From NCBI GenBank assembly GCA_001897605.1, contig MKTL01000001.1, positions 496,001 through 560,000 on the forward strand: DNA of 64,000 nt, read 5' to 3'. Of this stretch, positions 16,509 to 59,266 are shown one piece after another; position 1 is the stretch's first letter; every line of letters begins with the position of its first letter. This stretch comes from Clostridiales bacterium 38-18. Lineage in GTDB: Bacteria > Bacillota > Clostridia > Peptostreptococcales > Acidaminobacteraceae. Under the pieces are notes generated by a model that had not been told where the DNA came from, made no database searches, and worked only from the letters and a program-made list of their open reading frames with translations. The position numbers were made by a program, and so were the translations under genes.

Positions 16509-16871
16509 GGGGATGTACTGGTTTCGACAGGGATGATGAGCTTTTATAAGCGAGCCGAGTTTCCTGACCTGGGGTACTCGTTAAAGAACTGGGTCATTAA
16601 ACACAAACGCAAACGAAAATTTTGCATTAGCTGCTTAATTGCAGCGTCACCTTTAGGCCTTATCTCAGCCGCCTAGAGCCTGACCAACCCCTGCTGAGGT
16701 CCCTTTCCCTGACACTTTTCTAGTCGTGGAATAGCGGTACGATAGAAATAGCCACATCACTTGAGCGTCGTTACTCGTGAGGTGTGGCGAACCCCTAATT
16801 AACGACTGCGCTCGGAGAAAGTGAAAGTAAGTTGTTTTTGGACGGGGGTTCGACTCCCCCCATCTCCACCA
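16509..16871 (+). ncRNA. ssrA: Transfer-messenger RNA (tmRNA)
   Basis: The 5' end GGGGATGTACTGGTTTCGAC pairs with the 3' end CATCTCC-ACCA as the acceptor stem (7 bp with one G-U). The T-arm is GGGGGTTCGACTCCCCC. The tag reading frame ends at 16636-16638 and encodes at least ANENFALAA, with GCA at 16609 (resume codon not certain). The encoded CCA ends at 16871. About 363 nt. The last 73 bases overlap the recombinase gene on the other strand: the element integrated here kept the tmRNA 3' end intact. Confidence 0.95.
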
Positions 16872-18664: not shown

Positions 18665-19330
18665 AGATCCTCCAATTTTCGTTTGAAGGAAACGAGCTCA
18701 TTTCCGGTTGGTTAGCTAATCCAACGGTGCACAGTAGAAACATTTACTGTACATATCAGGCCCTCTGAAAGTGATTCAGAAGGTCTGATATTGACAGAGA
18801 AGGATTTGACAAAAGGGTATCACATCACTTAAAGTGAATGCAATGTTGTGAAAGATTTCTAGACAAGTGCTGGTGAACACTCTCATAGGATTTTTCCTCT
18901 CCCCATACTAATGGCAAGCCGTTCTCACTTTAATGACCAAACGGAAGTATCATAATCTGACGCATAAGGTCGTGGCCCATTGAACTACCAAATTCAACTG
19001 ACAATCAGCTCAAATCGCTCGCATAATTTATGGTCGTGGCGTACTGACTGTCCGGCTTTTCCTTGCGGTTTATGCATCAAACGTATCCAGAAATCTACTA
19101 TTCAATTTTCAAAGGTCGTTTTAAGAAAAAAAGGTCTTCTTAATAACCATGACAGAAATGGATGGGATTTGAACCCTGAAAGGAAAAATATTTATTAATT
19201 GACGGTTGTGCTAAAAAAGAATATTATGTTAGCCAGCTAATTATTCAATAATTGATACAGAACTGGACATTTTTGAACGTATATAATATAATAAATACGA
19301 ACAAGAATGTCTTTTGTGAGAGGTGATTCT
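18665..19330. other. Non-coding stretch between recombinase operon and abiE
   Basis: No convincing gene in 666 bp. It contains a hairpin of TATCAG..CTCTGA/TCAGAA..CTGATA type (about 18756-18794), scattered short inverted repeats (ACAGTAAA-like arms near 18733-18750), and GGGATTTGAACCC near 19162, which reads on the minus strand like a tRNA T-arm but has no matching acceptor stem. The promoter of the abiE pair should lie near the right end: TATAAT occurs at about 19286 in ACGTATATAATATAATAAATA. The start of the recombinase operon lies at the left. Confidence 0.4.
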
Positions 19331-31440: not shown

Positions 31441-34400
31441 ATGAAGTTACAATTCAAGCATCAGAAGTTCCAAGCGGATGCGGCAAAAGCTGTTTGCGAT
31501 GTATTTGCAGGGCAGCCGTATTTGACGCCCACCTATTTGATGGATAAGGGACTTGATACAGATGGACAAATGACACTGACATTTGCGCAGGAATTCACAG
31601 GATGGGGAAATCATAAATTAGTACCAGAGCTTAACGACCAGATTATTTTAGAAAATCTGCACAAGGTACAACGTAATCATCAGATTGAGCCTTCCAAAGC
31701 TTTGGAAGGTAGATACAATCTCACAGTTGAGATGGAAACGGGTGTTGGCAAGACATACACCTATATTAAAACCATGTATGAGATGAATAAACGCTTTGGG
31801 TGGAGTAAGTTTATTGTTATTGTGCCGAGCGTTGCAATCCGCGAGGGGGTATATAAGTCCTTTCAAATAACTCAAGATCACTTTGCAGAGGATTATGGGA
31901 AGAAAATACGATTTTTCATTTATAACTCTGCCCAGTTGACTGAAATTGACCGCTTTGCTAGTGACAGCTCGATAAATGTTATGATTATCAACTCACAGGC
32001 CTTTAATGCCAAGGGTAAGGACGCACGAAGAATTTATATGAAGTTGGACGAATTCAGAAGCCGTCGTCCGATTGACATTATTGCTAAGACGAATCCGATC
32101 TTGATTATTGATGAACCTCAATCGGTTGAGGGGAAGCAGACAAAGGAACGATTGAAAGAATTCAATCCATTCATCACATTGCGGTATTCTGCTACCCATA
32201 AGAAAGACAATGTATATAACATGGTCTACCGTTTGGATGCCATGGAAGCCTATAATAAGAAACTGGTCAAAAAAATCGCAGTTAAAGGGATCTCAGTTAC
32301 TGGTAGCACCGCAACAGAAGGCTATCTGTACTTGGCGTGTCTACATCTTTCAGGCGATAAAGCACCGACTGCTTCTTTGGAGTTTGATATTAAAGGAGCA
32401 AAGGGTGTGCGCAAGGTAACCCGAAAGGTGTATGAGGGCTACAACCTGTTTGAGAATTCTGGAGAGCTTGAAGAATATAAGAATGGCTATACGGTTCAAA
32501 GTATTGATGGCCGCGATAACTCGGTAACGTTCCTTAATGGTATAAAAATATTCGCAGGAGATGTGAAGGGAGCTGTTAGTGAAGAGCAGCTGCGCCGTAT
32601 TCAAATCCGTGAAACGATTCTTTCACATATCGAAAGGGAGCGCCAGCTCTTTTACAAGGGTATTAAAGTTCTGTCGCTTTTCTTTATTGATGAGGTGGCA
32701 AAGTATAAGCAATATGATGCGTCTGGCAGTCCTATAAATGGCGTTTACGGGGATGTATTCGAGGAAGAGTATCAGGATATTGTCAGCTCTTTGCAGCTGG
32801 AAATTGGTGACGAAGAGTATATTAAATACCTTAACCTGCATTCAGCTTCCGCAATTCATCAGGGGTATTTCTCTATAGATAAGAACAAGAAAACTGGGAA
32901 AGAGTTTTTCGTAGATAGCAAAATGGAGCGAGGTACTACCGAATCGTCAGATAGTGATGCATACGATTTGATTATGAAAGACAAGGAACGACTCTTGGAC
33001 CGTAAAGAACCAGTTCGCTTTATCTTCTCTCATTCCGCGCTTAGAGAAGGATGGGACAATCCGAACGTCTTCCAGATCTGTACATTAAAACAAAGTAGTT
33101 CTGAAGTAAGGAAACGACAAGAAGTTGGGCGTGGACTGCGCTTATCAGTTAATCAAAGTGGCGAACGTATGGATGCGAATCTATTAGGTGAAGATGTCCA
33201 TCATATCAACGTGTTGACGGTTATTGCCAACGAAAGCTATGACAGCTTTGCGAAGGCTTTACAGTCTGAGTTGGCTGAAGCTGTAGCGGATAGGCCGTTA
33301 ATGGTTACAGTGGATCTATTTAAGAATAAAGTCATTAAAGATCATTTGGGTGCTGAGCAGGTTGTTGATTTAGAAACAGCGCAGACGATTTATGAAGGAT
33401 TGATCGCAAACGGTTATATCAAGAAAGGTGTATTAACGGACAAGTACTATGATGACAAGAAAAATGGCAGCCTAGAATTTGCTGAAGAGGTGAAAGACTT
33501 TACGGATTCAATTGTGACTATTATTGATTCCATTTATGACAGCAGAACGATGCAACCAGATAATGCCCGAGATGGAAACATTGAATTGCGCTTGGATAAG
33601 AAGAAGCTGGATATGGATGCATTTAAAAAGCTCTGGGCCCAAATTAACACAAGATCTGCCTATGTTGTCAACTTCGATACAGATGAGTTGATTGAGAAAT
33701 CCATTAAGGCACTTAATAAGGATCTGAGGGTATCAAAAATCTTCTTTAAAGTGCAGTACGGGGAAATGAAGGATATCAAGTCGAAAGAGGAACTGCTTGC
33801 AGGTGCTTCTTTTATCAAGGAATCTGGTGAATACAAGGCTGCACAAGTTTCGGCCAATAGCAACGTAAAATACGATCTTATTGGTAAAGTTGTTGCTGAA
33901 ACGGGTCTTACACGCGAAGCTGTAGTGAAAATTTTGCAGGGCATTGAAAAAACTGTGTTTGACCAATTCAAGGACAACCCTGAAGAATTCATTATTAAGG
34001 CTTCAAATGTTATAAACGAACAAAAGGCAACGGTCATTATTCAGCACATCACTTATAATAAGATCGATGCGGTTTATGATACAACGATCTTCACAGAGCC
34101 TACGATGAAGGGGCGTTTAGGTGTAAATGCCATGGCAACAAAGCGCCATTTGTATGATCATATCCTATATGATTCTACAAATGAAAAAAGCTTTGCCCAA
34201 AATCTTGATACCAGTGAGGAAGTAGCGGTATATGTAAAACTGCCGAGTGGCTTTTACATTTCAACTCCAGTGGGTAAGTACAATCCGGATTGGGCGATAG
34301 CTTTTAATGACGGTAAAGTGAAGCATATTTACTTTGTAGCAGAGACTAAGGGATCAATGTCTTCCATGCAGCTTCGCGTGATTGAAGATGCGAAGATCCA

Positions 34401-42679: not shown

Positions 42680-42812
42680 GTCTTACCAAATTAACAATTA
42701 GCGGTATGGCTGAAATAAAATTTGAAATCAAAAATGAATATAGGGGCACTTTCAGAATTGCCTAAAGGTTGGTCAAAAGAATTGAAACTTAAAAAATGTA
42801 TTGGCAAGCAAT

Positions 42813-42832
42813 GCAAGTGTATATACACTTGC
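42813..42832. repeat. Perfect 20-bp palindrome
   Basis: GCAAGTGTATATACACTTGC, between the large nuclease gene and the small gene at 42894. No T-run follows. An imperfect hairpin (CCGTAATAA / TTATTGCGG, about 42839-42867) lies directly after it. Could be an operator or a leader structure of the downstream genes. Confidence 0.5.
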
Positions 42833-42893
42833 GAATTTCCGTAATAATCCTGACGGGTTATTGCGGAGCAATACATAAATACGGAGGAAATAA

Positions 42894-43169
42894 ATGAGTG
42901 CGGATTTGATGAGATTATTAAATTCTATAGGGAAATCAGTTTTTGTGGAGTACTATGATATTTTTTCTTCAAGCAAATTATCAACGGATGAAAAAATTGA
43001 GAAACTGCCTCGGGAATATTCAATCAATGGATCAAGAACAAGAATCAATTGTGCAAACAGGATTTTTGAACGTGGTCTTGAAAAAGATACACTAAGAATT
43101 GTAATTCAAGCTAGAGTCGATGATCATATTAAAGCAAAAGCAACTTATCTACTTCAGAATGCAAAGTAG
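42894..43169 (+). CDS. Hypothetical small protein
   Basis: 91 residues, mostly helical (MSADLMRLLNSIGKSVFVEYY). No domain recognised and no membrane segment. GGAGG precedes the ATG. The next gene follows 21 bp downstream in the same direction. Confidence 0.6.
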   Translation: MSADLMRLLNSIGKSVFVEYYDIFSSSKLSTDEKIEKLPREYSINGSRTRINCANRIFERGLEKDTLRIVIQARVDDHIKAKATYLLQNAK

Positions 43170-43190
43170 AAAGGTAATTTGGAGGCCATC

Positions 43191-43394
43191 ATGAAATTTG
43201 GATTTAGAAAGCCCAGCTTGAGAAAGAGAATCTCAGCGCGGACAAGTATCAAAAGACAAGTTGTTCATCGTGCAGGTATTAAAATGCCACGTGGTTATGG
43301 CTGGATTAGGAATCCTAAAAAGTATGCTTATAATAAAGTCTATAATAGGACATCGTTTGATATTTTTAGATTCCTAAAGAAATTATTCGAGTGA
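43191..43394 (+). CDS. Small basic protein
   Basis: 67 residues, very rich in arginine and lysine: RKPSLRKRISARTS, then a GYGWIRNPKKYAYNKVYNRT core. I recall similar small proteins scattered in Firmicutes, without a known function; the charge suggests nucleic-acid binding. The ATG lies directly behind GGAGG; an in-frame TTG upstream overlaps that site. Confidence 0.65.
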   Translation: MKFGFRKPSLRKRISARTSIKRQVVHRAGIKMPRGYGWIRNPKKYAYNKVYNRTSFDIFRFLKKLFE

Positions 43395-43463
43395 GGAATG
43401 CTGAGGGTCAGTGGCGTTTAAATATTCAAAATGTCCATAGTTCGGATATGAAAGAAGGTATTT

Positions 43464-44456
43464 ATGTCCCCAAATGAGAACCTACTCAATGAATTTAATG
43501 CTGTCATTAATGAAACACAGCAGTTACTGGATTCTAATACTGAATGGATAGCAAGGTATGATTCCTATGCGGATGTAATGATTTCAAAATTAGAGTTAAT
43601 CAACAAAATTCGTGGTCAATTCAGGGAATGGTCACCGCTCAAAATTTATATTCATACGACTTCGATTAAACAAGCGGTTAGCTCTGTGACCTTTGATGTT
43701 CGATATCTAGGTCAAAATGTTGCGCGGCTGACAGGACATCTGAATGGTATACATAAACTGAGTACGTCAAATTTTGATGAGACAAACTTAAGAGATTTTG
43801 AGTGTCCGATCAAATTGAAAAATGTGGATTGGACCAGTCCGGAAGCGACTACATTCAGGAAATTTTATAAAGATCGACAGGCTTTACGGATTAAAGCGGA
43901 TAGTAATAAGAGAAATGAAGAGCATCGATTAGAAAGCTTGTGGTTGACTGAACTTTCGAAAAAAGAAAATAAAGTACTGCCTTACGTTAAACCAGTTTTG
44001 ATTGAAAAAGTAAGATTTTCGATGCCAACACCTATTAGTGCCAGCAATCATAAGAGAATAAAATATTCGGGTATAAGCGGTGGCGGTATCGATTTGTTTG
44101 CGAGAACAGGCACTGGAGGACGAAATACCAAACTTTGTATTATGGAATTAAAAGGTGAAAATACTAGGAAAGAACCTCCAAAAGATGCAGTCAAGCAAGC
44201 GGTAGCCTATGCGACATTTATTAAACGGTTACTTAGAAGCACAAGTGGACATAAATGGTGGCGAATATTTGGATTCAATAGTGAGATCCCAGAGCGATTG
44301 GTACTATATGCAGCTTGTGTAATGCCTTCTAGCGCGTGCAATGATTATTTATTTAAAGACATGGAATTTGACATAGATGGAGATTTGATTAGACTTCATT
44401 ATGTTTATTATGAAGAATCAAATAATAGAATCGATAAAGTGATTACAAGCTTATAA
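43464..44456 (+). CDS. Protein with PD-(D/E)XK-like motif, probable nuclease
   Basis: 330 residues. The C-terminal half has SGGGIDLFARTGTGGRN, followed by LCIMELKGEN: an aspartate and an E-x-K spaced as in PD-(D/E)XK nucleases. A charged helical N terminus (about 1-150) has no recognised domain. AAGAAGG lies before the ATG. The setting behind several nuclease-helicase genes suggests a defence role, but the family is not one I can name. Confidence 0.6.
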   Translation: MSPNENLLNEFNAVINETQQLLDSNTEWIARYDSYADVMISKLELINKIRGQFREWSPLKIYIHTTSIKQAVSSVTFDVRYLGQNVARLTGHLNGIHKLSTSNFDETNLRDFECPIKLKNVDWTSPEATTFRKFYKDRQALRIKADSNKRNEEHRLESLWLTELSKKENKVLPYVKPVLIEKVRFSMPTPISASNHKRIKYSGISGGGIDLFARTGTGGRNTKLCIMELKGENTRKEPPKDAVKQAVAYATFIKRLLRSTSGHKWWRIFGFNSEIPERLVLYAACVMPSSACNDYLFKDMEFDIDGDLIRLHYVYYEESNNRIDKVITSL

Positions 44457-44464
44457 ACGCCATA

Positions 44465-45652
44465 ATGTGGAGGGCGATTTGGAGATTACTATTTACAGAG
44501 GTGCGAAAGAAATCATTCATCATCGTCGACGCTAAAGACAAGGTTCGGTTTCCTCAAAATGATGAAGAAAATGGGATGAAACTACAGCTCTTAGAAGACG
44601 CGATTCAAAATGCTGAGGACAGCGCATCGGATACCATCACGTCCTTTAGAAGTGAGGGACGAAAGTACTACATGTCATATCGTGAGCTATCAGCGCTTAA
44701 GGTGTCTAAGGCCAAAGGCGTGTCAAACAAACTGATTTTTCTCATAGACAGTCATGCTTTATCCCCTGTTATGAGAACCATGAATGTCGTTTTAACCGTG
44801 ATCGTCGCCATCGCCTTTATCATCAGTGGTATGGTTTCTCTTAAGCTATCGAAAAGTATATCGAAACCCCTCGTTGAGTTGTCTTTACAAGCGAAAGAAA
44901 TCGGAAAGGGCGTGTTTTTAAAGTTGCCATCGGACGACAGCAGTATTGAGTTTCATGAGCTGACACAGAGTATGAACGACATGTCTAAACGCTTGACAGA
45001 TCTTGATAAAGCCCAGAAACTATTTTTACAAAATGCTTCGCACGAGATTAGAACACCGCTTATGAGCATACAGGGATATGCGGAAGGCATTTCGAAAGGC
45101 ATATTTTCGGATACGACGAAGACCGCAGACATCATCTGTGAAGAAAGCAAACGACTGAACCAATTGGTGGATGAATTTCTGACACTTTCGAGAATCGAAA
45201 ATAACACCGATGAATCTGAATTTTATGTCCTCAACCTCTCTGATGTCATGAAAGAAGTGGTACAGAAAATCGAAGGTTACGCTTTGAGAGAACAGAAAAA
45301 AATCAACGTGATGCTTCCGCCAGATGTTATAATGATAAAGGCGAATGATGCTTTATTATCTCAAGCCATGATTAACATCATATCCAATGGCATCAAATAT
45401 GCCCATTCAAATGTGGACATAGCCATCAGTAAAGAAAATCACATGGTAATGATCAAAATCAAAGACGATGGCGATGGTATTCCCGTTCAGGATTTACCAC
45501 ACATCTTCGATCGATTTTATAAAGGCAAAAATGGTAATTTCGGATTAGGCCTTGCGATCGTAAAATCCGCGATTCTGAGTCTAAAAGGGTCGATTAGAGC
45601 TTATAACGAAAATGGAGCAGTTTTCGAAATCAAATTTCAAGTTATAACGTAA
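44465..45652 (+). pseudogene. Sensor histidine kinase, N-terminally truncated
   Basis: Transmitter part is intact: HAMP (about 125-175), the H-box ASHEIRTPLMSIQGYAEG with the phospho-accepting histidine (near 193), N-box MINIISNGIKYAHSN, G1/F boxes DDGDGIPVQDLPHIFDRFYKG and G2 GLGLAIVKS. One membrane helix (about 102-124) follows an extracytoplasmic stretch, but the first membrane helix is missing. The apparent start (MWRAIWRLLF) overlaps the foreign stub at 44479. No response regulator lies beside it. The 3' end is 18 bp ahead of the PocR-type regulator. Probably non-functional. Confidence 0.75.
44479..44535 (+). pseudogene. 5' stub of a gene resembling an MBL-fold hydrolase N terminus
   Basis: TTG at 44479 stands four bases after GGAGGG and opens LEITIYRGAKEI, which resembles the start of metallo-beta-lactamase-fold hydrolases (normally continued by GG-x-C/N). 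After about 12 residues the frame turns into HHRRR and stops. This looks like a true gene start cut off by a recombination junction near 44512. Only 12 residues support it. Confidence 0.35.
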
Positions 45653-45670
45653 TGTCTATGGGAGGAGTAC

Positions 45671-46657
45671 ATGATCAGAGCGCATTTAAGTCTGGTAGAA
45701 ATTCTAGAGATGAACCAGTTTCAAACACTACAAGATAACTTGTCTGTATCCACAGATTTAGCGATTTTAACCGTGGATTATAAAGGCATCCCTGTGACCA
45801 CACACAGTTCATGTCGAGCTTTTTGTGAAAAGGTAAGGAAAGCCCCCTATTATAAAGATTTATGTCAAAAGTGCGACTCAAGGGGTGGACTTGAAGCCGC
45901 TAGACTTCAAAAGCCGTATATTTATATGTGTCATATGGGGATTGTGGATTTGGCGGTGCCCATCATCGCAGAGGATCAATATCTGGGGGCAATGATGGCC
46001 GGACAGGTTCGGATATCAGACAGCAGCAAACTCGAGTGGATTTTAAATGCGAACCACGATGCCGAAAATTGTAAAGCCAACGCAGAACTCATGGCAGATT
46101 ATCAAGCGATGCCCGTGTTGAGCTTTGAAAAAATAGAAGCCATCGGAAACCTGTTGTTTGGGATTAGCAAAGTCATCGTAGACAGAGCGACACTTCTTAA
46201 AAAACCAGTAGACCATCCCGGTTCTGAGCCGCTTGAGTCTCCTGTATATCAGCCGATGGTTAACCCTAAAATGGTGATCCGAACGGAGATTCCCACACAG
46301 TACATCTTCCTCAAACCCGCAATCGAATATCTCCATCAAAATTGCCATCAGAAGATTTACCTCAAAGATATGGCCACTTTATGTAACATCAGCGAGAGCT
46401 ATTTTTCGAAGTCGTTCCATAAAGCCTTTGGCTTAAGTTTTACCATGTATCAGAACAAACTCAGAATCGACAAATCCGAAATCATGCTTAAAAACACCAG
46501 TAAAAACATCAATCAGATTTCAGATGAACTCGGTTTTGATCATGCCAGCTACTTTATCAGACTATTCAAAAAAATGCTAGGCATCACACCCGCTATGTAC
46601 AAACGTCTGTACATTGAAAAGACTCAACTCGAACAAAAAAGTTCAAATCGTTCATGA
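45671..46657 (+). CDS. PocR-domain AraC-type regulator
   Basis: 328 residues. The N-terminal PocR sensory domain (about 1-170) has CRAFCEKVRKAPYYKDLCQKCD and LAVPIIAEDQYLGAMMAGQV. The C-terminal AraC helix-turn-helix pair (about 220-320) has LKDMATLCNISESYFSKSFHKAFG and ISDELGFDHASYFIRLFKKMLGITP. PocR domains bind small hydrocarbon metabolites such as glycerol or propanediol derivatives; the location directly ahead of gldA-dhaKL makes this the likely activator of that operon. GGAGGAG precedes the start. Confidence 0.88.
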   Translation: MIRAHLSLVEILEMNQFQTLQDNLSVSTDLAILTVDYKGIPVTTHSSCRAFCEKVRKAPYYKDLCQKCDSRGGLEAARLQKPYIYMCHMGIVDLAVPIIAEDQYLGAMMAGQVRISDSSKLEWILNANHDAENCKANAELMADYQAMPVLSFEKIEAIGNLLFGISKVIVDRATLLKKPVDHPGSEPLESPVYQPMVNPKMVIRTEIPTQYIFLKPAIEYLHQNCHQKIYLKDMATLCNISESYFSKSFHKAFGLSFTMYQNKLRIDKSEIMLKNTSKNINQISDELGFDHASYFIRLFKKMLGITPAMYKRLYIEKTQLEQKSSNRS

Positions 46658-46660
46658 TAA

Positions 46661-46690
46661 AAATCAGCATTTTATGCTGATTTTTTTTAT
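46661..46690 (+). terminator. Terminator after the PocR/AraC gene
   Basis: AAATCAGCA / TGCTGATTT arms with TTTTA loop, then T-run. It separates regulator and gldA transcripts; TATAAT at 46776-46781 is a candidate -10 for gldA. Confidence 0.85.
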
Positions 46691-46824
46691 TTCCAAAACA
46701 TAAAATTAGTATTTTAGAACAGTTATGTATCAAAATCGTGCCATTTCCTCTGATGTATTTTATGTCCCACTTCTATATAATCAGGTTAAGTCGCAACACA
46801 TTATGATTAAAAGGAGATGGCATT

Positions 46825-47907
46825 ATGAAAAAAATACTCATTTCACCGTCAAAATATGTTCAAAGTAAAGGTGCAATTAAGGAACTGACTAAAATCGTCA
46901 GCGAATACGGTAAAAAAGCACTTTTGGTTTCTTCCAGTGCAGATTTATCTTATGTTCAAAAGGCTCTGGATGAAGCGCAACAAAATTTTCCCCTTGAATT
47001 CGTGCTAACGTCCTTTAGAGGCGAATGCTCAAATGTAGAAATCGAAAGATTGAGAACCCTTTCTAAAGCAAACGGCTGTGATGTCATCATCGGTCTGGGT
47101 GGCGGAAAGTCTTTAGATACAGCGAAAGCCATCGCCCATTACGATCATTTACCCGTCATCGTCGTGCCCACCATCGCCTCCACAGATGCACCATGCAGCA
47201 GTTTAGCAGTCATTTATACAGAAGAAGGCGCGTTCGAATCTTATATGTACTTTAAAACGAATCCAAACCTCGTGTTGGTGGATACAGACGTCATCGCAAA
47301 AGCACCTGTTCGTTTTTTAGTGGCAGGCATGGGCGATGCTCTATCCACCTATTTTGAAGCCAGAGCTTGCGCGAGATCTTTTGCAGATAACATTCCTGGA
47401 GGCAAGAGCACGAAACTGGCCATCGCCGCCGCCAAACTATGCTATGAAACACTACTGGAAGACTCTTTAAAAGCCAAAGCGGCCTGTGAAGCCAATGTCG
47501 TGACACAAGCACTTGAAAACATCATCGAAGCCAATATCCTTCTCAGCGGTATGGGATTTGAAAGCAGTGGTCTTGCAGCGGCACATGCAGTGCATAACGG
47601 ATTGACTGCCCTGGAAGAAACACACCATTGTTTCCACGGAGAAAAGGTAGCCTTCGGCGTATTGGTGCATCTGGTATTAGAAAATGCCCCAAAAGCAGAA
47701 CTCGAGGAAGTTTTAGCCTACTGTAAATCGGTGGGTTTACCGACCACACTTGAAGCGCTTGGCGTTAAGGAAGTGACGGATGAAAAAGTCATGGCAGTGG
47801 CTGAACTGGCGTGTGCGGAAGGTGAAACGATTCACAACATGCCATTTAAAGTCACAGCTGAAGATGTTTATGCAGCCATCTACGCAGCCAATCGTTTGGG
47901 GGCTTAA
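46825..47907 (+). CDS. gldA: Glycerol dehydrogenase (iron/zinc-type)
   Basis: Oxidises glycerol to dihydroxyacetone with NAD+. 360 aa. The NAD-binding region has VIIGLGGGKSLDTAKAIAH, then PTIASTDAPCSSLAVIY. Metal ligands are provided by ...VAGMGDALSTYFEARAC and the later GLAAAHAVHNGLT and HHCFHGEKVAFG histidines. AAGGAGAT precedes the ATG. It is followed after one base by dhaK, so its product is passed straight to dihydroxyacetone kinase. Base composition is clearly richer in GC than the defence block. Confidence 0.95.
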   Translation: MKKILISPSKYVQSKGAIKELTKIVSEYGKKALLVSSSADLSYVQKALDEAQQNFPLEFVLTSFRGECSNVEIERLRTLSKANGCDVIIGLGGGKSLDTAKAIAHYDHLPVIVVPTIASTDAPCSSLAVIYTEEGAFESYMYFKTNPNLVLVDTDVIAKAPVRFLVAGMGDALSTYFEARACARSFADNIPGGKSTKLAIAAAKLCYETLLEDSLKAKAACEANVVTQALENIIEANILLSGMGFESSGLAAAHAVHNGLTALEETHHCFHGEKVAFGVLVHLVLENAPKAELEEVLAYCKSVGLPTTLEALGVKEVTDEKVMAVAELACAEGETIHNMPFKVTAEDVYAAIYAANRLGA

Positions 47908-47908
47908 C

Positions 47909-48901
47909 ATGAAAAAAATCATCAATCACACGGATGACATCGTCATCCAGATGGGCAAAGGCATGGCTCTAGCCCATCCCGATAAAATCGAGTTCGAAGA
48001 AAAATATAAAATTTTTAAACGCAAAATGATCAACCCCAAAAAAGTCGCATTGATCTCAGGGGGAGGCAGCGGTCACGAGCCTGCACATGCCGGTTATGTG
48101 GGCACGGGGATGCTCGATGCAGCCGTGGCAGGAGATGTGTTTGCGTCACCCTCATCGGTACAAGTGTATCACGCGATCAAACAGGTGACAGGTGAAGCGG
48201 GATGTCTGCTCATCGTAAAAAACTATTCAGGCGATTGCATGAACTTCGACACAGCCGCTGAAATGGCAGAAGAAGATGATTTAAAAGTCCTTTCTGTGTA
48301 CGTCAATGACGACGTCGCCGTAAAAGACAGCCTCTACACCATCGGCAGACGGGGCGTGGCAGGCACCGTGCTCGTGGAGAAAATCGCAGGCGCAGCAGCG
48401 GAAAGAGGAGACTCGCTGGATAACGTTCAGCTTCTCGCTCAAAAGACCATCGAACAGGTGAAGAGTATCGGGGTTGCATTGACGTCGTGTACCGTACCAG
48501 TGAAAGGCACACCTACATTTGACCTTGGTTCAGATGAAATCGAGTTTGGTGTCGGCATCCACGGTGAACCTGGCATCGAAAGAAGAAAAAGCATGACGTC
48601 ACATGCACTGGCAGTTGAAATGTTAGACTTGCTGATCGGGGAACTTGGCCTGACGGGTGAAGATGAAATCGTGGTCATGGTCAATGGACTAGGAGGCACG
48701 CCACTTCAAGAACTGTATGTGTTTAATCACGATGTTCGTGCCATACTCAGTTCTAAAAACATCCACGTGTACGACACGCTGGTGGGCAACTATATGACGG
48801 CCATCGATATGGCAGGACTATCGCTCACGGTACTCAAACTCACAGATGAACTCAAAGCGCTCTACGATGCGCCTGCAGATACCATCGCATATCATAAATA
48901 G
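47909..48901 (+). CDS. dhaK: Dihydroxyacetone kinase subunit DhaK
   Basis: Binds dihydroxyacetone covalently through a histidine. 330 aa with SGGGSGHEPAHAGYVG near the N terminus, the GDVFASPSSVQV block, KNYSGDCMNFD, and GVGIHGEPGIER with the substrate histidine near 215. The frame extends upstream inside gldA, but ATG 47909 starts the family N terminus (MKKIINHTDDIV). Works with DhaL and a PTS-type DhaM to form dihydroxyacetone phosphate, which enters glycolysis through TpiA. Confidence 0.96.
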   Translation: MKKIINHTDDIVIQMGKGMALAHPDKIEFEEKYKIFKRKMINPKKVALISGGGSGHEPAHAGYVGTGMLDAAVAGDVFASPSSVQVYHAIKQVTGEAGCLLIVKNYSGDCMNFDTAAEMAEEDDLKVLSVYVNDDVAVKDSLYTIGRRGVAGTVLVEKIAGAAAERGDSLDNVQLLAQKTIEQVKSIGVALTSCTVPVKGTPTFDLGSDEIEFGVGIHGEPGIERRKSMTSHALAVEMLDLLIGELGLTGEDEIVVMVNGLGGTPLQELYVFNHDVRAILSSKNIHVYDTLVGNYMTAIDMAGLSLTVLKLTDELKALYDAPADTIAYHK

Positions 48902-48929
48902 AACATTATAAAAATCTTGAGGAGGCAAT

Positions 48930-49565
48930 ATGTCAACTTTATCAAAAGCTGAGCTCTTCCAAATGGTCAATCATATGGCAGAGGTGATCATCGAAAACGA
49001 AGTGCCGTTTTGTGAGCTAGATGCTGTGGCAGGGGATGGCGATTTCGGGATGTCTATCGCAAAAGGCTTTAAAGTGCTTATGGCGCAGTGGGAGACCTTA
49101 AATCGCGAAAGTATCGGCGAATTTTTAGCGGACTGTAGCATGGTCATTTCAGAAAACTGTGGTGGGGCTTCAGGCCCGATTTGGGGCGCGGGTTTCAAAG
49201 GGGCAAGTAAGGCCACCACGGGTTTACAAAGTCTCACAAAGGCTGAGTTTGCTTCTATGCTAGAAAGTTCAGCAGAACTTATCCAAAAACGTGGCAAAGC
49301 AAACAGGGGTGATAAGACGCTTCTCGATGCCCTCTTGCCTTGTGTCGATGCATTAAACGCACACAAGTCGGAGGATATCGCGTTTAAAGCGTTCTTGCAA
49401 GCGGGTGCGATGGCGGCCACAGAAGGCGCAGAAGCCACGAAACACATGATCGCTTCTAGAGGACGTGCCAGCTATGTCGGTGAGCGTAGTTTGGAATTCC
49501 CAGACGCTGGCGCAATGGCTCTATCCATTATATTTACAGCGGTATCCGGTCAAGTCTTAGATTAA
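48930..49565 (+). CDS. dhaL: Dihydroxyacetone kinase subunit DhaL
   Basis: ADP-binding subunit that transfers phosphate to DhaK-bound dihydroxyacetone. 211 aa. The Mg-nucleotide site AVAGDGDFGMSIAKGF, the glycine-rich GGASGPIWGAGF and the RGKANRGDKTLLDALLP segment are intact, as is the C-terminal GRASYVGERSLEFPDAGA. TTGAGGAGG precedes the ATG. No dhaM follows: the next gene is an unrelated hydrolase. Confidence 0.96.
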   Translation: MSTLSKAELFQMVNHMAEVIIENEVPFCELDAVAGDGDFGMSIAKGFKVLMAQWETLNRESIGEFLADCSMVISENCGGASGPIWGAGFKGASKATTGLQSLTKAEFASMLESSAELIQKRGKANRGDKTLLDALLPCVDALNAHKSEDIAFKAFLQAGAMAATEGAEATKHMIASRGRASYVGERSLEFPDAGAMALSIIFTAVSGQVLD

Positions 49566-49579
49566 TTCAGTAAGATTCG

Positions 49580-49603
49580 AAAAAATACAGCAGTGTATTT
49601 TTT
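49580..49603 (+). terminator. Terminator of gldA-dhaKL
   Basis: AAAAAATACA / TGTATTTTTT with GCAG loop. Confidence 0.8.
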
Positions 49604-49631
49604 GAAATAGAAAGAGGAGGGAAATAGTGAA

Positions 49632-51671
49632 ATGAAGAAGACCATGGCGTTTTTCCAAAATCCGTCAAAAGGATTGGCACTGGCATTGATCTTAATATTA
49701 GTGGGCAGTTTTTTTGCAAATGTTTTTAATACCTCATTTTACCAAGTTGATGTAAAGCGCATTTCATTCGAAACCGAAAAAGGAACGTTATCAGGGCTGC
49801 TATATATGCCTGATGGCGCAAGCGCAGACGACCCTAGACCAACCATCGTCACCACACATGGGTATCTCAACTCGGCAGAAATGCAAGATGCACCTGCGAT
49901 AGAGATGTCTAAAAGGGGCTTTGTCGTCCTGGCACTGGACATGTATGACCATGGACATTCCATGACGAAACTCGACACAGAAAATGCAGCTGCATTCTTC
50001 TCATTCTGGCCCACAGCTCTAAACGATGCGGTTCAGTACATCTATGACCAAGATTACGTGAAAAAAGATGAAGCAGGCAATGGTCTCATCGCAGTCAGTG
50101 GTCACTCCATGGGCGGATTTTCAACCACCATGGCCATGGTCATGGATGAGCAAGGCTTCGCTCAAACGGGAATCCGAAAAATTCACGCTGGCTTAACCGT
50201 AGGCGCAGACTTCCTTTGGACAAGTTACCTCGAGGTAACGGGCGATGTGGCCGGCGCAGCGATTGGACCAAGAATTTCAGGTAAAATCGCAGCGCACTAC
50301 GACGAATTCTTCTTCGACATGGCAGCGGCAGCTGAATCAAAAACAGTCGTTCAAAAGGATTATTTAAAGCAAGCCGAAGGCTTAGCATTTCTTGGCAATC
50401 CTGAAAATCCTGTCCCTGGTGAGTTCTATAGCTTAGAAAATGGCGGTTTAAGAGTCATCTATACCCCAAATGAAACACATCCATGGAACCATTTTTCTAA
50501 AGAAACCACAGGAAATCAAATCGATTTCTACCAAAAAGCATTTGAAGGAAAACTTTCAGAAAATCAAACCAACGTCGACGCTGACAGTCAAACGTGGTTC
50601 TTTAAAGAGTTGTTTGAACTCGTGGCCATGATCGGATTCTTCATGCTATTTGTTCCATTGGCAGCCATCCTCGTTCAAAAGGTAAAATGGCTTCAGACAG
50701 AACAACAAAATGCCACATCGACAGTACGCAAAATGCACCCAGCCTTTTTAACCTTGATTGTCATCATCAGCGCAGGCTTCCCAGCGTATTTCTATCCGAC
50801 GCTCATGGGTAAAATTCCTGAAAAACTCCTCTGGTTACAAAGAGGCGCAGAAGTGTTCATCGTCCTCAGCGCAGTGGCACTGATCTCGAGCTTTGTAATC
50901 GGTCAGTTTAAAACAAAATCCAACACAATCATCTCGGCTTTGGCACTCATCTTCGCGATTTTCGGTCGCGTTTTAATGAACCAATCCGCTGAGTTTTTCA
51001 AATCTAGCAGTTATTTTAACGCACCAACCATAAATCAATTCGGTTTCTGGGCGGTTTCATCAGCCGTATTCGCAGTCCTCTTCATGGCAGTGATTCATTT
51101 TATCACGTCGTCTAAGGATCAAACGGTAACACTTGACATGTACGGCCTGACGAAAAAACCGATGGACATCCTTAAAGGCTTCTGTTTAGCCGTGATTCTC
51201 CTCGTTTCAGGCATCGTCATCCTGTTTGTCGTAGATGCGCTCTTTAAGACGGACTTCCGCTTCTGGACTTTTGCCGTGAAGACCTTTAACGCGAAACACA
51301 TGATCTCTGCACTGGGTTATATGCCGATCTTCTTCTTATTCTATCTGGTCAATGGCATCGCCATACACAAAACGACACTTGGCCTCAAGTTCGGTAAATC
51401 CATCGCAGTCCTCATGAATGTCGGAGGCTTAATCCTGTTCCTAGCGCTTCAATACGGCATGCTCTTCGCCACAGGAACAGGCATAGACCCAACACAATCA
51501 CTCACCAGCATCATCCTCATAGGCATGGTGCCAGTGCTCCTCATCGCAGCCCTGTTCACGAAAATGTTAACCGAGAAAACAGGCAACATCTACACCAGCG
51601 TATTCTTCAACACCATGCTGATGACCCTGATCTCAGTTGCCAATACAGTGGTTTATAGTAAACTTGTTTAG
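49632..51671 (+). CDS. Membrane-anchored alpha/beta hydrolase
   Basis: 679 residues. A membrane helix (about 14-32) leads to an extracytoplasmic alpha/beta-hydrolase domain (about 45-310) with GTLSGLLYMPDG, the oxyanion loop THGYLNS and the nucleophile elbow VSGHSMGGFS (serine near 160). The C-terminal ~350 residues form about nine membrane helices. This hydrolase plus membrane-domain layout occurs in uncharacterised Firmicutes proteins; the substrate is unknown (peptide or acyl ester). GGAGGG precedes the start, where GTG 49627 is a less likely alternative. Confidence 0.8.
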   Translation: MKKTMAFFQNPSKGLALALILILVGSFFANVFNTSFYQVDVKRISFETEKGTLSGLLYMPDGASADDPRPTIVTTHGYLNSAEMQDAPAIEMSKRGFVVLALDMYDHGHSMTKLDTENAAAFFSFWPTALNDAVQYIYDQDYVKKDEAGNGLIAVSGHSMGGFSTTMAMVMDEQGFAQTGIRKIHAGLTVGADFLWTSYLEVTGDVAGAAIGPRISGKIAAHYDEFFFDMAAAAESKTVVQKDYLKQAEGLAFLGNPENPVPGEFYSLENGGLRVIYTPNETHPWNHFSKETTGNQIDFYQKAFEGKLSENQTNVDADSQTWFFKELFELVAMIGFFMLFVPLAAILVQKVKWLQTEQQNATSTVRKMHPAFLTLIVIISAGFPAYFYPTLMGKIPEKLLWLQRGAEVFIVLSAVALISSFVIGQFKTKSNTIISALALIFAIFGRVLMNQSAEFFKSSSYFNAPTINQFGFWAVSSAVFAVLFMAVIHFITSSKDQTVTLDMYGLTKKPMDILKGFCLAVILLVSGIVILFVVDALFKTDFRFWTFAVKTFNAKHMISALGYMPIFFLFYLVNGIAIHKTTLGLKFGKSIAVLMNVGGLILFLALQYGMLFATGTGIDPTQSLTSIILIGMVPVLLIAALFTKMLTEKTGNIYTSVFFNTMLMTLISVANTVVYSKLV

Positions 51672-51672
51672 G

Positions 51673-51831
51673 ACATGATTCATGCCGTCCCACCACCATG
51701 AGCCTTATATGTGCCTCACTTAGTCCTCGCCACTTCTCCATCTAAGTGCGACATAGTCGCACCTAGAAGTGTCTGCGGAATCGTTCGTTGCACACATATG
51801 GCTCATGATGGTGGGACTCATGTATTATGTC
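51673..51831. repeat. Long imperfect inverted repeat 1 with nested hairpin
   Basis: Arms of about 41 bp: 51673-51713 with 51791-51831, sharing GTCCCACCA-C/T-CATGAGCC as the core. The loop contains a second inverted repeat, CACTTCT..TGCGAC against GTCGCACC..AGAAGTG (about 51731-51772). No gene lies in it. It starts one base after the hydrolase stop codon. Confidence 0.75.
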
Positions 51832-52000: not shown

Positions 52001-52166
52001 AGGCATAAGCCCTGCGCATGGTGACATTGCGACGAGGGGTGTAAAAATAGAAAAAGTGCATTAGCATTTCGAAATCCACTGTTTGAGTTGAAAACGAGTG
52101 GCTAAGGCACGTTTCGTTATTTTTACCCCTGAGGAGCACGAGTCACCATGCGCAGGGCTTATGCCT
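52001..52166. repeat. Inverted repeat 3 with 25-bp perfect ends
   Basis: The ends 52001-52025 and 52142-52166 are perfect inverted copies (core GCCCTGCGCATGGTGAC). Inside, AGGGGT-G-TAAAAATA (52035-52049) pairs with TTATTTTTACCCCT (52117-52130). The right arm abuts the group II intron reverse-transcriptase fragment. It looks like a MITE or the scar of an inversion at the truncated intron end. Confidence 0.75.
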
Positions 52167-52631
52167 GTGGTGATAGTGATGGCGAAGCTTGGCCTCCAGC
52201 TCAACCTGGAGAAGACGAGGTTCGTGAACATGTATGACGGCAAGGACGGGTTCGACTTCCTGGGCTTCCATCATAGGCGAAGCCAGATGGAGACCAGAAA
52301 AGGCAGACGCTACACGACGACGGCACTGGTGCCGTCGAAGAAAGCGAAGAAAGCGATGAGGGAAAAGATCAAAGAGGTGTTCCAGTCAAGGAGCAGCCTG
52401 CTCCTCGAAGTACAGGAGGTCGTCAGAATCCTGAACCCCAAGATTGTGGGACTCAGGAACTACTACGGCCTGAAACATGCGAAGAAGGCACTAAATACCC
52501 TCGACTGGTACGTCACGAAACGTCTCATCCTCTGGTATAACATGAAACATCAGAAAAAGAGGAGGCTTGGCGGGTACCGTAAAATCGTGCACTTGCTGGA
52601 CTCAGCCGGACTGAAGAAACTCGCGGCCTGA
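52167..52631 (+). pseudogene. Group II intron reverse transcriptase, C-terminal fragment
   Basis: About 154 residues of the thumb/maturase part: LGLQLNLEKTRFVNMYDG, FDFLGFHHRR, then SKKAKKAMREKIKEV and the maturase segment EVVRILNPKIVGLRNYYG..WYVTKRLILWYNMKHQKK. All catalytic palm motifs (including the YADD box) are missing. The fragment is much richer in GC than its neighbours. Any start codon in this frame is incidental; the upstream part is replaced by inverted repeat 3. Confidence 0.88.
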
Positions 52632-52738
52632 CGTTATGATGCGCATGGAAGAAGAACATCGGAAAGCCGTGTGCGGGAAAACCGCATGCACGGTTTGATG
52701 AGGGGAAGGAGGAAGAAATTCCTCCGACCTACTCTACC
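52632..52738 (+). mobile_element. 3' end of the group II intron (domains V and VI)
   Basis: Domain V is recognisable at 52663-52697: AAAGCCGTGTGCGG, GAAA-type loop, CCGCATGCACGGTTTG. A domain VI-like hairpin follows (GGAGGAAGAAATTCCTCC), with a 3' end near CTCTAC at 52737. The 5' half and domains I-IV are absent, so the intron cannot splice. Confidence 0.8.
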
Positions 52739-59254: not shown

Positions 59255-59266
59255 CCATCTCCACCA
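59255..59266 (+). repeat. Candidate right attachment site: exact 12-bp copy of the ssrA 3' end
   Basis: CCATCTCCACCA, identical to 16860-16871. It is followed immediately by a strong terminator hairpin, the structure expected behind a native ssrA. The recombinase lies at the other copy and a relaxase remnant lies inside this one. Confidence 0.5.

Follow-up and report, generated by a model that had tools for sequence, protein, structure and literature searches.

A free-standing homologue of the Eco15I C-terminal domain encoded close to a probable PD-(D/E)XK nuclease at the edge of a defence block

Do three adjacent genes that border a bacterial defence block make up one defence system, and if not, what is each of them? 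The window analysed here, a stretch of 64,000 nucleotides from Clostridiales bacterium 38-18, raises this question with three co-directional genes on the + strand, which encode proteins of 91 aa (42894-43169), 67 aa (43191-43394) and 330 aa (43464-44456), in the arrangement that an earlier note on the sequence had described. Our analysis showed that the trio is not one conserved system. We hypothesize that the first and the third gene may work together, and we weigh this reading against its rivals below.

The three genes and their setting

The three genes follow each other at short distances, and there is no terminator-like site on the + strand between them. Each has a ribosome binding site, the third gene as well as the two to which the earlier note had limited this feature, and the Shine-Dalgarno-like runs ahead of the three starts are ACGGAGGAAATAAATG, TTGGAGGCCATCATG and AGAAGGTATTTATG. 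The ORF list gives the 67-aa ORF 71 aa, with a TTG start at 43179. Position 42680, from which the group had been counted, is merely the first base past the stop of the DUF4011 gene. GC3 of the trio is 0.23-0.32, similar to that of two measured defence genes (0.32-0.34), while the two genes on the right differ from it (0.45-0.46).

The placement at the edge of a defence block stands. The genes on the left encode an SNF2-type helicase, a type III methyltransferase and endonuclease, a TrlF/Ppl-like ATPase and a DUF4011/MTES_1575 helicase-nuclease (PDC-S37, Hhe- and ProA-like). The 12 bases that end the tmRNA (16860-16871) are repeated directly at 59255-59266, and the sequence past the second copy resembles that directly after the tmRNA in a related genome (G001; G and L handles denote genomes and loci). 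We therefore read 16872-59266 as an element integrated at the tmRNA; this stretch of ~42.4 kb is probably one mobile element that holds both the trio and the defence block. At its left end it encodes a 560-aa protein that looks like a serine recombinase by inspection, and its GC3 steps from 0.30 to 0.45.

The element has further contents. An Rfam pemK RNA match (18883-18956, - strand, 43.1 bits) lies ~400 bases to the right of the recombinase gene, and by inspection there is a glycerol/dihydroxyacetone gene set. At the junction past the 330-aa gene lies a histidine kinase ORF (44465-45652), apparently shortened at its N terminus and without a clear ribosome binding site. The stretch 45260-51718 is 97.9-98.8% identical to G002, another species of the genus, compared with 79-87% for the smpB/tmRNA stretch, which points to a recent transfer of the metabolic part. 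Within 52098-52737, a 177-aa ORF that by inspection resembles a fragment of an intron-encoded protein is followed by a group II intron match (52662-52737).

The earlier note had treated the three genes as a unit and called for a survey of their co-occurrence. Neither the 91-aa nor the 67-aa gene is present in any locus fetched for the four 330-aa family relatives, and the three genes do not recur together in the fetched loci; we rejected a conserved three-gene system for these loci. PADLOC 2.0.0 gave no match for the 91-aa and 67-aa proteins at 0.1 and only PDC-S11 (0.0046) for the 330-aa protein. The label "unclassified" still fits the 330-aa protein, which no searched library names, and it is superseded for the 91-aa protein (Eco15I C-terminal domain) and the 67-aa protein (phage families without known function). 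Guilt by association, which had been extended to the whole trio, is strongest for the 91-aa protein.

The 91-aa protein and the company of its domain

A tblastn search of plasmids with the 91-aa protein returned one match, to the C-terminal part of a 290-aa Pantoea protein (P0002; 33.7% identity, E=4e-4), and comparison of the two domain copies gives 31-33% identity. The N-terminal part of P0002 matches DUF6998, a family for which our search found no literature, as well as PADLOC mREase_II (1.9e-68) and 8q5m, the catalytic domain of Eco15I as solved by crystallography (E=6.6e-92). Because the Pantoea protein is Eco15I-like and its C-terminal part is the part that was matched, the 91-aa protein is, as judged by sequence comparison, a free-standing homologue of the Eco15I C-terminal domain. 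An E. coli homologue of the Pantoea protein (85% identical) has a helix-turn-helix regulator and IS1 genes as neighbours in one record, which agrees with the setting of Eco15I in the accessible part of PMC4926085. The 91-aa protein also matches a PHROGs family at positions 198-285 of 290 (E=4.2e-6); this match excepted, no relatives of the domain were found in phages and IMG/VR, and the plain phage search with the 91-aa protein returned no match.

Profile comparison extends the family. In leave-one-out tests with the domain HMM, in which G446 and G078 were both withheld when either was tested, the window protein was recovered with E=4.8e-24 (best of 5000 shuffles, 0.12), and E-values across eight lineages ranged from 3e-22 to 2.4e-28, the best of 5000 shuffles for each being 0.0011 or weaker. 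From one free-standing copy, that of G811, plain tblastn also leads to the Eco15I domain (E=4e-5). Profile searches detected the domain in 3/381 genomes of the class and 6/388 of the phylum, own genome counted in both; G696 (E=5.1e-5, positions 26-78) was left out of the phylum count and of the domain set. A single-protein search among near relatives found it in the own genome only (1/61). The PDB profile search with the domain family returned only noise.

The domain keeps varied company in the eight lineages. In Pantoea and E. coli, which count as one lineage, it is fused C-terminal to a BisI-type nuclease, and in G171 it is fused N-terminal to an HNH domain (PF01844, 3e-5; PADLOC mREase_IV, 1.8e-6); the two nuclease classes are unrelated. 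The C terminus of Eco15I is described as an HNH domain in the part of PMC8281217 available to us. The Pantoea protein has no Pfam match to HNH and the HNH match in G171 starts at residue 186, past the domain, and hence in these sequences the domain is distinct from HNH. In G742 the domain is encoded by a free-standing gene that overlaps the start of an Mrr_cat gene (PF04471, 6e-7) and has a DdmD-like helicase gene (8.8e-40) three ORFs upstream of it, so that the order of small partner and then nuclease is seen again. In G458 it forms the C-terminal part of a 252-aa ORF, with an Mrr_cat gene (6e-23) one ORF away and, beyond this gene, ZacA and ZacB genes on the other strand. In the window lineage the free-standing domain gene is followed by the 67-aa and then the 330-aa gene.

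In the fetched loci of the remaining three lineages no recognised nuclease is fused to or adjoins the domain. G811 has a free-standing copy, and in G446 and G078 (3.2 kb covered in the latter) a single protein carries the domain in its middle, after a Phd/YefM-like domain and before DUF1413. These proteins are encoded at L042 916-1959 and L040 928-1968; the Phd/YefM-like match has an E-value of 3.9e-9 in one of them and of 0.0084, below Pfam's cut-off, in the other (L040). The tally of the eight lineages is thus two nuclease fusions, two Pfam-recognised nucleases within two genes, one motif-based case (the window) and three with none seen, as raw counts without a background rate. Some features seen by inspection were not counted, namely a thermonuclease-like ORF ~3.4 kb downstream of the G811 copy and two Rpn-like ORFs ~3-5 kb from the G446 gene. 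A 370-aa ORF after the G811 copy has an R-x4-H string, the HEPN motif, by inspection only and has no Pfam or PADLOC match, and we rejected it as a HEPN protein.

Upstream of the 91-aa gene, the perfect 20-bp palindrome GCAAGTGTATATACACTTGC at 42813-42832 is exact as previously reported. It is the sole match in the window within 3 mismatches and is present in 0/100 shuffles, and the exact sequence is absent from IMG/VR. About 0.06 perfect 20-bp palindromes are expected in 64 kb (64000/4^10) and the window has two; the other lies at 31690-31709, within the type III endonuclease gene. A second, imperfect hairpin (42837-42868, + strand) sits between the palindrome and the 91-aa gene, and the two occupy the gap after the DUF4011 helicase gene; the RNA fold of 42800-42900 has -30.6 kcal/mol (z = -4.5). 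The palindrome overlaps a weak promoter-like match at 42801-42829, and this promoter is unproven because the 9 matches in the region are not above the shuffle mean of 8.1. The Pantoea fusion gene has a near-perfect 18-bp palindrome upstream at a similar distance. Despite this, a palindrome as operator finds no support as a general rule, since none comparable lies within 220 bases upstream of the free-standing copies of G742 and G811 or of the E. coli fusion gene.

The 330-aa and 67-aa proteins

With its four accepted relatives (G199, G789, G1029 and G1048; in G1048 the gene is split across two ORFs), the 330-aa protein forms a family of the Bacillota that is rare. Matches were found in 1/61 near relatives (own genome), 2/391 genomes of the class (own and G199), 3/398 of the phylum (own, G789 and G730, later dropped) and 3/300 of the class of G789 (G789, G1029 and G1048). 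G730 was left out because its match (E=1.3e-4) covers the N-terminal part only and has an internal stop, at a site that holds a 60-aa ORF. The first scan of genome contigs for relatives found none and the second only L007, the same contig and protein as the G199 locus. None were found in phages, plasmids and IMG/VR, the last scanned by short peptide patterns.

The D...E-x-K spacing seen earlier is present as D210-x17-E228-x-K230. These three residues, the signature of PD-(D/E)XK nucleases, are identical in the window, G789, G1029 and G1048, and Q245 and Y249, which went unmentioned in the earlier note, form a Q-x3-Y motif identical in 4/5 lineages, window included. Q-x3-Y is the motif of the QxxxY branch of the PD-(D/E)XK superfamily, to which RecB, Cas4 and lambda exonuclease belong. 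All five motif residues are among the 64 of 330 positions that are identical in the window, G789, G1029 and G1048; G789 and G1029 are 71% identical, and the four motif-bearing lineages are therefore not fully independent. G199 keeps 29 of the 64 positions, including D210 and E228, and has lost K230 (to L), Q245 and Y249, a joint loss that is expected if these residues act together in catalysis.

Named families and models add little to these motifs. In the motif region PADLOC gives PDC-S11 for the window (0.0046) and a type I methyltransferase model for G789 (9.9e-5), and at 0.01 nothing for G1029, G199 and the C-terminal part of G1048. Pfam, NCBIfam and PHROGs gave nothing above noise for the 330-aa protein, and the PDB profile search with its family returned only noise. 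Both AlphaFold models that we made are of low confidence; the first, of the 330-aa protein, has a pLDDT of 54.5, with residues 138-236 below 50, and a Foldseek search with it gave nothing at E<=0.001. Because no searched library names the protein and its core is modelled poorly, the PD-(D/E)XK assignment rests on the motifs. The profile search and fold prediction that had been called for thus left the fold unsupported, and motif conservation makes the protein a probable PD-(D/E)XK nuclease.

Gene contexts vary among the relatives. In G789 and G1029 the gene directly upstream of the family gene is alike (L005 2457-3281 and L014 1718-2554) and has a UDG match in G789 (PF03167, 2e-4, sub-threshold). 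We rejected a UDG-like companion as a shared feature, as genes next to the Eco15I-type domain in G458, G078 and G742 that resemble it by inspection have no significant similarity to this gene or to one another. WYL- and RMMBL-domain genes lie upstream of the G1048 gene, and an RMMBL-domain ORF lies near the G199 gene together with recombinase fragments (by inspection). The RMMBL (RNase-type metallo-beta-lactamase) ORFs are at L015 9999-11354, the end of which is L013 3102-3353, for G1048, and at L003 232-831 for G199.

The 67-aa protein is very basic (pI 11.7) and matches four PHROGs families without known function (best E=2.3e-22). Its relatives occur in 118 phage records (identity up to 72%) and 14 plasmid records (up to 81%), in Bacillota, Pseudomonadota and others; the PDB profile search returned no match. 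Among the relatives is one in the class 1 integron region of a Citrobacter plasmid (L017 10001-10213, 60.6% identity) and one in a Paenibacillus phage with transposase genes on both sides (L051 5001-5204, 71.6%). The 67-aa protein is a widespread mobile-element protein and probably a passenger here.

Readings of the locus and likeness to known systems

We hypothesize, at slightly less than even confidence, that the 330-aa protein cleaves DNA with the 91-aa protein as a small partner in trans, the two forming a two-gene restriction-like module in the defence island. The 330-aa protein would be the DNA-cutting subunit, a PD-(D/E)XK enzyme with the active site D / E-x-K / Q-x3-Y, and target choice would fall to its N-terminal half. 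For its part, the 91-aa protein would supply the Eco15I C-terminal domain in trans; instead of reading modified bases, it would bind and gate the nuclease as a small subunit for regulation or assembly, and the 67-aa gene between the pair would be a mobile passenger. Against this module, the domain and the 330-aa family are seen paired once, the fetched G199, G789, G1029 and G1048 loci being without the domain, three of the eight domain lineages show no recognised nuclease beside it in the loci fetched, and the 67-aa gene interrupts the pair. We consider a broader proposal somewhat unlikely, namely that the Eco15I C-terminal domain is a plug-in helper common to unrelated nucleases (BisI type, HNH, Mrr and the 330-aa family), which gates or assembles them, in cis as a fused part and in trans as a separate protein; the window would then contain a restriction module of two components that has not been described before, its nuclease belonging to a new family.

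Could the 91-aa protein instead be a DNA-recognition subunit, which brings the nuclease to a sequence or to modified bases in a type IV-like manner? Five of the eight domain sequences have a basic pI (9.2-9.5), among them the three free-standing copies; two arginines, Arg50 and Arg74 in window numbering, are invariant in 8/8, and the domain of G171 precedes an HNH domain that matches mREase_IV. However, the pI is close to neutral in the Pantoea copy (7.7) and acidic in the Phd-fused ones (4.7-4.9), and the work on Eco15I itself makes this reading quite unlikely. Those who solved the catalytic domain had expected modification to be sensed by the C-terminal domain; in the part of PMC11347163 accessible to us, full-length Eco15I and its catalytic domain have similar modification sensitivity, binding of the C-terminal domain to the modified target was undetected by surface plasmon resonance (SPR), and the function of the domain is called unknown. 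These data argue against the modification reading and leave gating, assembly or docking for the domain.

That the three genes are unrelated passengers in the variable part of a mobile element, each acting alone or none acting at all, is unlikely in our view, although their phyletic spreads differ, no fetched locus beyond the own genome has two of the three genes, and the 67-aa gene is plainly mobile. The patchwork nature of the element, with the truncated-looking kinase at the junction and the step in GC3, also fits such passengers; the short co-directional spacing with a ribosome binding site for each gene and the uninterrupted + strand between them do not, nor does the domain-before-nuclease order that returns in G742. 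A toxin-antitoxin-like arrangement, in which the 91-aa protein is a labile inhibitor of the 330-aa nuclease and perhaps an autorepressor at the palindrome, would explain the antitoxin-first gene order, and it is in keeping with the palindromes upstream of the window and Pantoea genes and with the fusion behind a Phd/YefM-like domain in G446 and G078. However, G742, G811 and E. coli lack such a palindrome and Eco15I is active with the domain fused (PMC4926085, accessible part), and we regard this arrangement as very unlikely. The two-gene module, with the 91-aa protein gating the 330-aa nuclease, is the reading that we carry forward.

What does the domain's company add? Homologues of the Eco15I C-terminal part have been known since 2016, as in the accessible part of PMC4926085 it is reported to resemble some putative HNH endonucleases and to have separate homologues of 88-129 aa, with a function undetermined there. 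According to the available part of PMC11347163, a BLAST search with the C-terminal domain returned Eco15I orthologues and nothing else, and the accessible parts of the Eco15I literature hold no tie that we found between the domain and neighbouring nucleases. The profile connects this orphan domain with fusions to HNH and to Phd/DUF1413 and with free-standing genes, of which two precede nuclease or nuclease-like genes in defence-type loci; beyond the earlier homologues it ties free-standing copies to neighbouring nucleases, and the locus adds a candidate nuclease family unnamed in the searched libraries. The nuclease company of the domain points to a testable class, the modulation of a neighbouring nuclease in trans.

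Four known systems help to place the locus. The 330-aa protein has D, E-x-K and Q-x3-Y in the same order as QxxxY-type nucleases such as RecB, Cas4 and lambda exonuclease, a likeness in motifs only, without a sequence match to a named family. Eco15I, a BisI-family enzyme of type IIM, shares with the window a homologous domain, the 91-aa protein matching across Eco15I_Ctd; unlike in Eco15I, the domain is a separate gene here and the neighbouring 330-aa nuclease is not BisI-like, with E-x-K where BisI-family enzymes are reported to have Q-x-K (PMC11347163, accessible part). Neither the 330-aa nor the 91-aa protein matches DUF6998 or mREase_II, which together with Q-x-K mark the BisI catalytic domain. 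The 88-129-aa homologues of PMC4926085 have the same size and domain as the 91-aa protein and are described without genomic context in the part of that paper available to us, whereas two of the three free-standing copies found here (window and G742) precede nuclease or nuclease-like genes. The closest parallel in layout is G742, where the nuclease belongs to Mrr_cat (PF04471) and not to the 330-aa family and the 67-aa gene is absent, but where, as in the window, a free-standing domain gene lies directly ahead of the gene for a probable nuclease.
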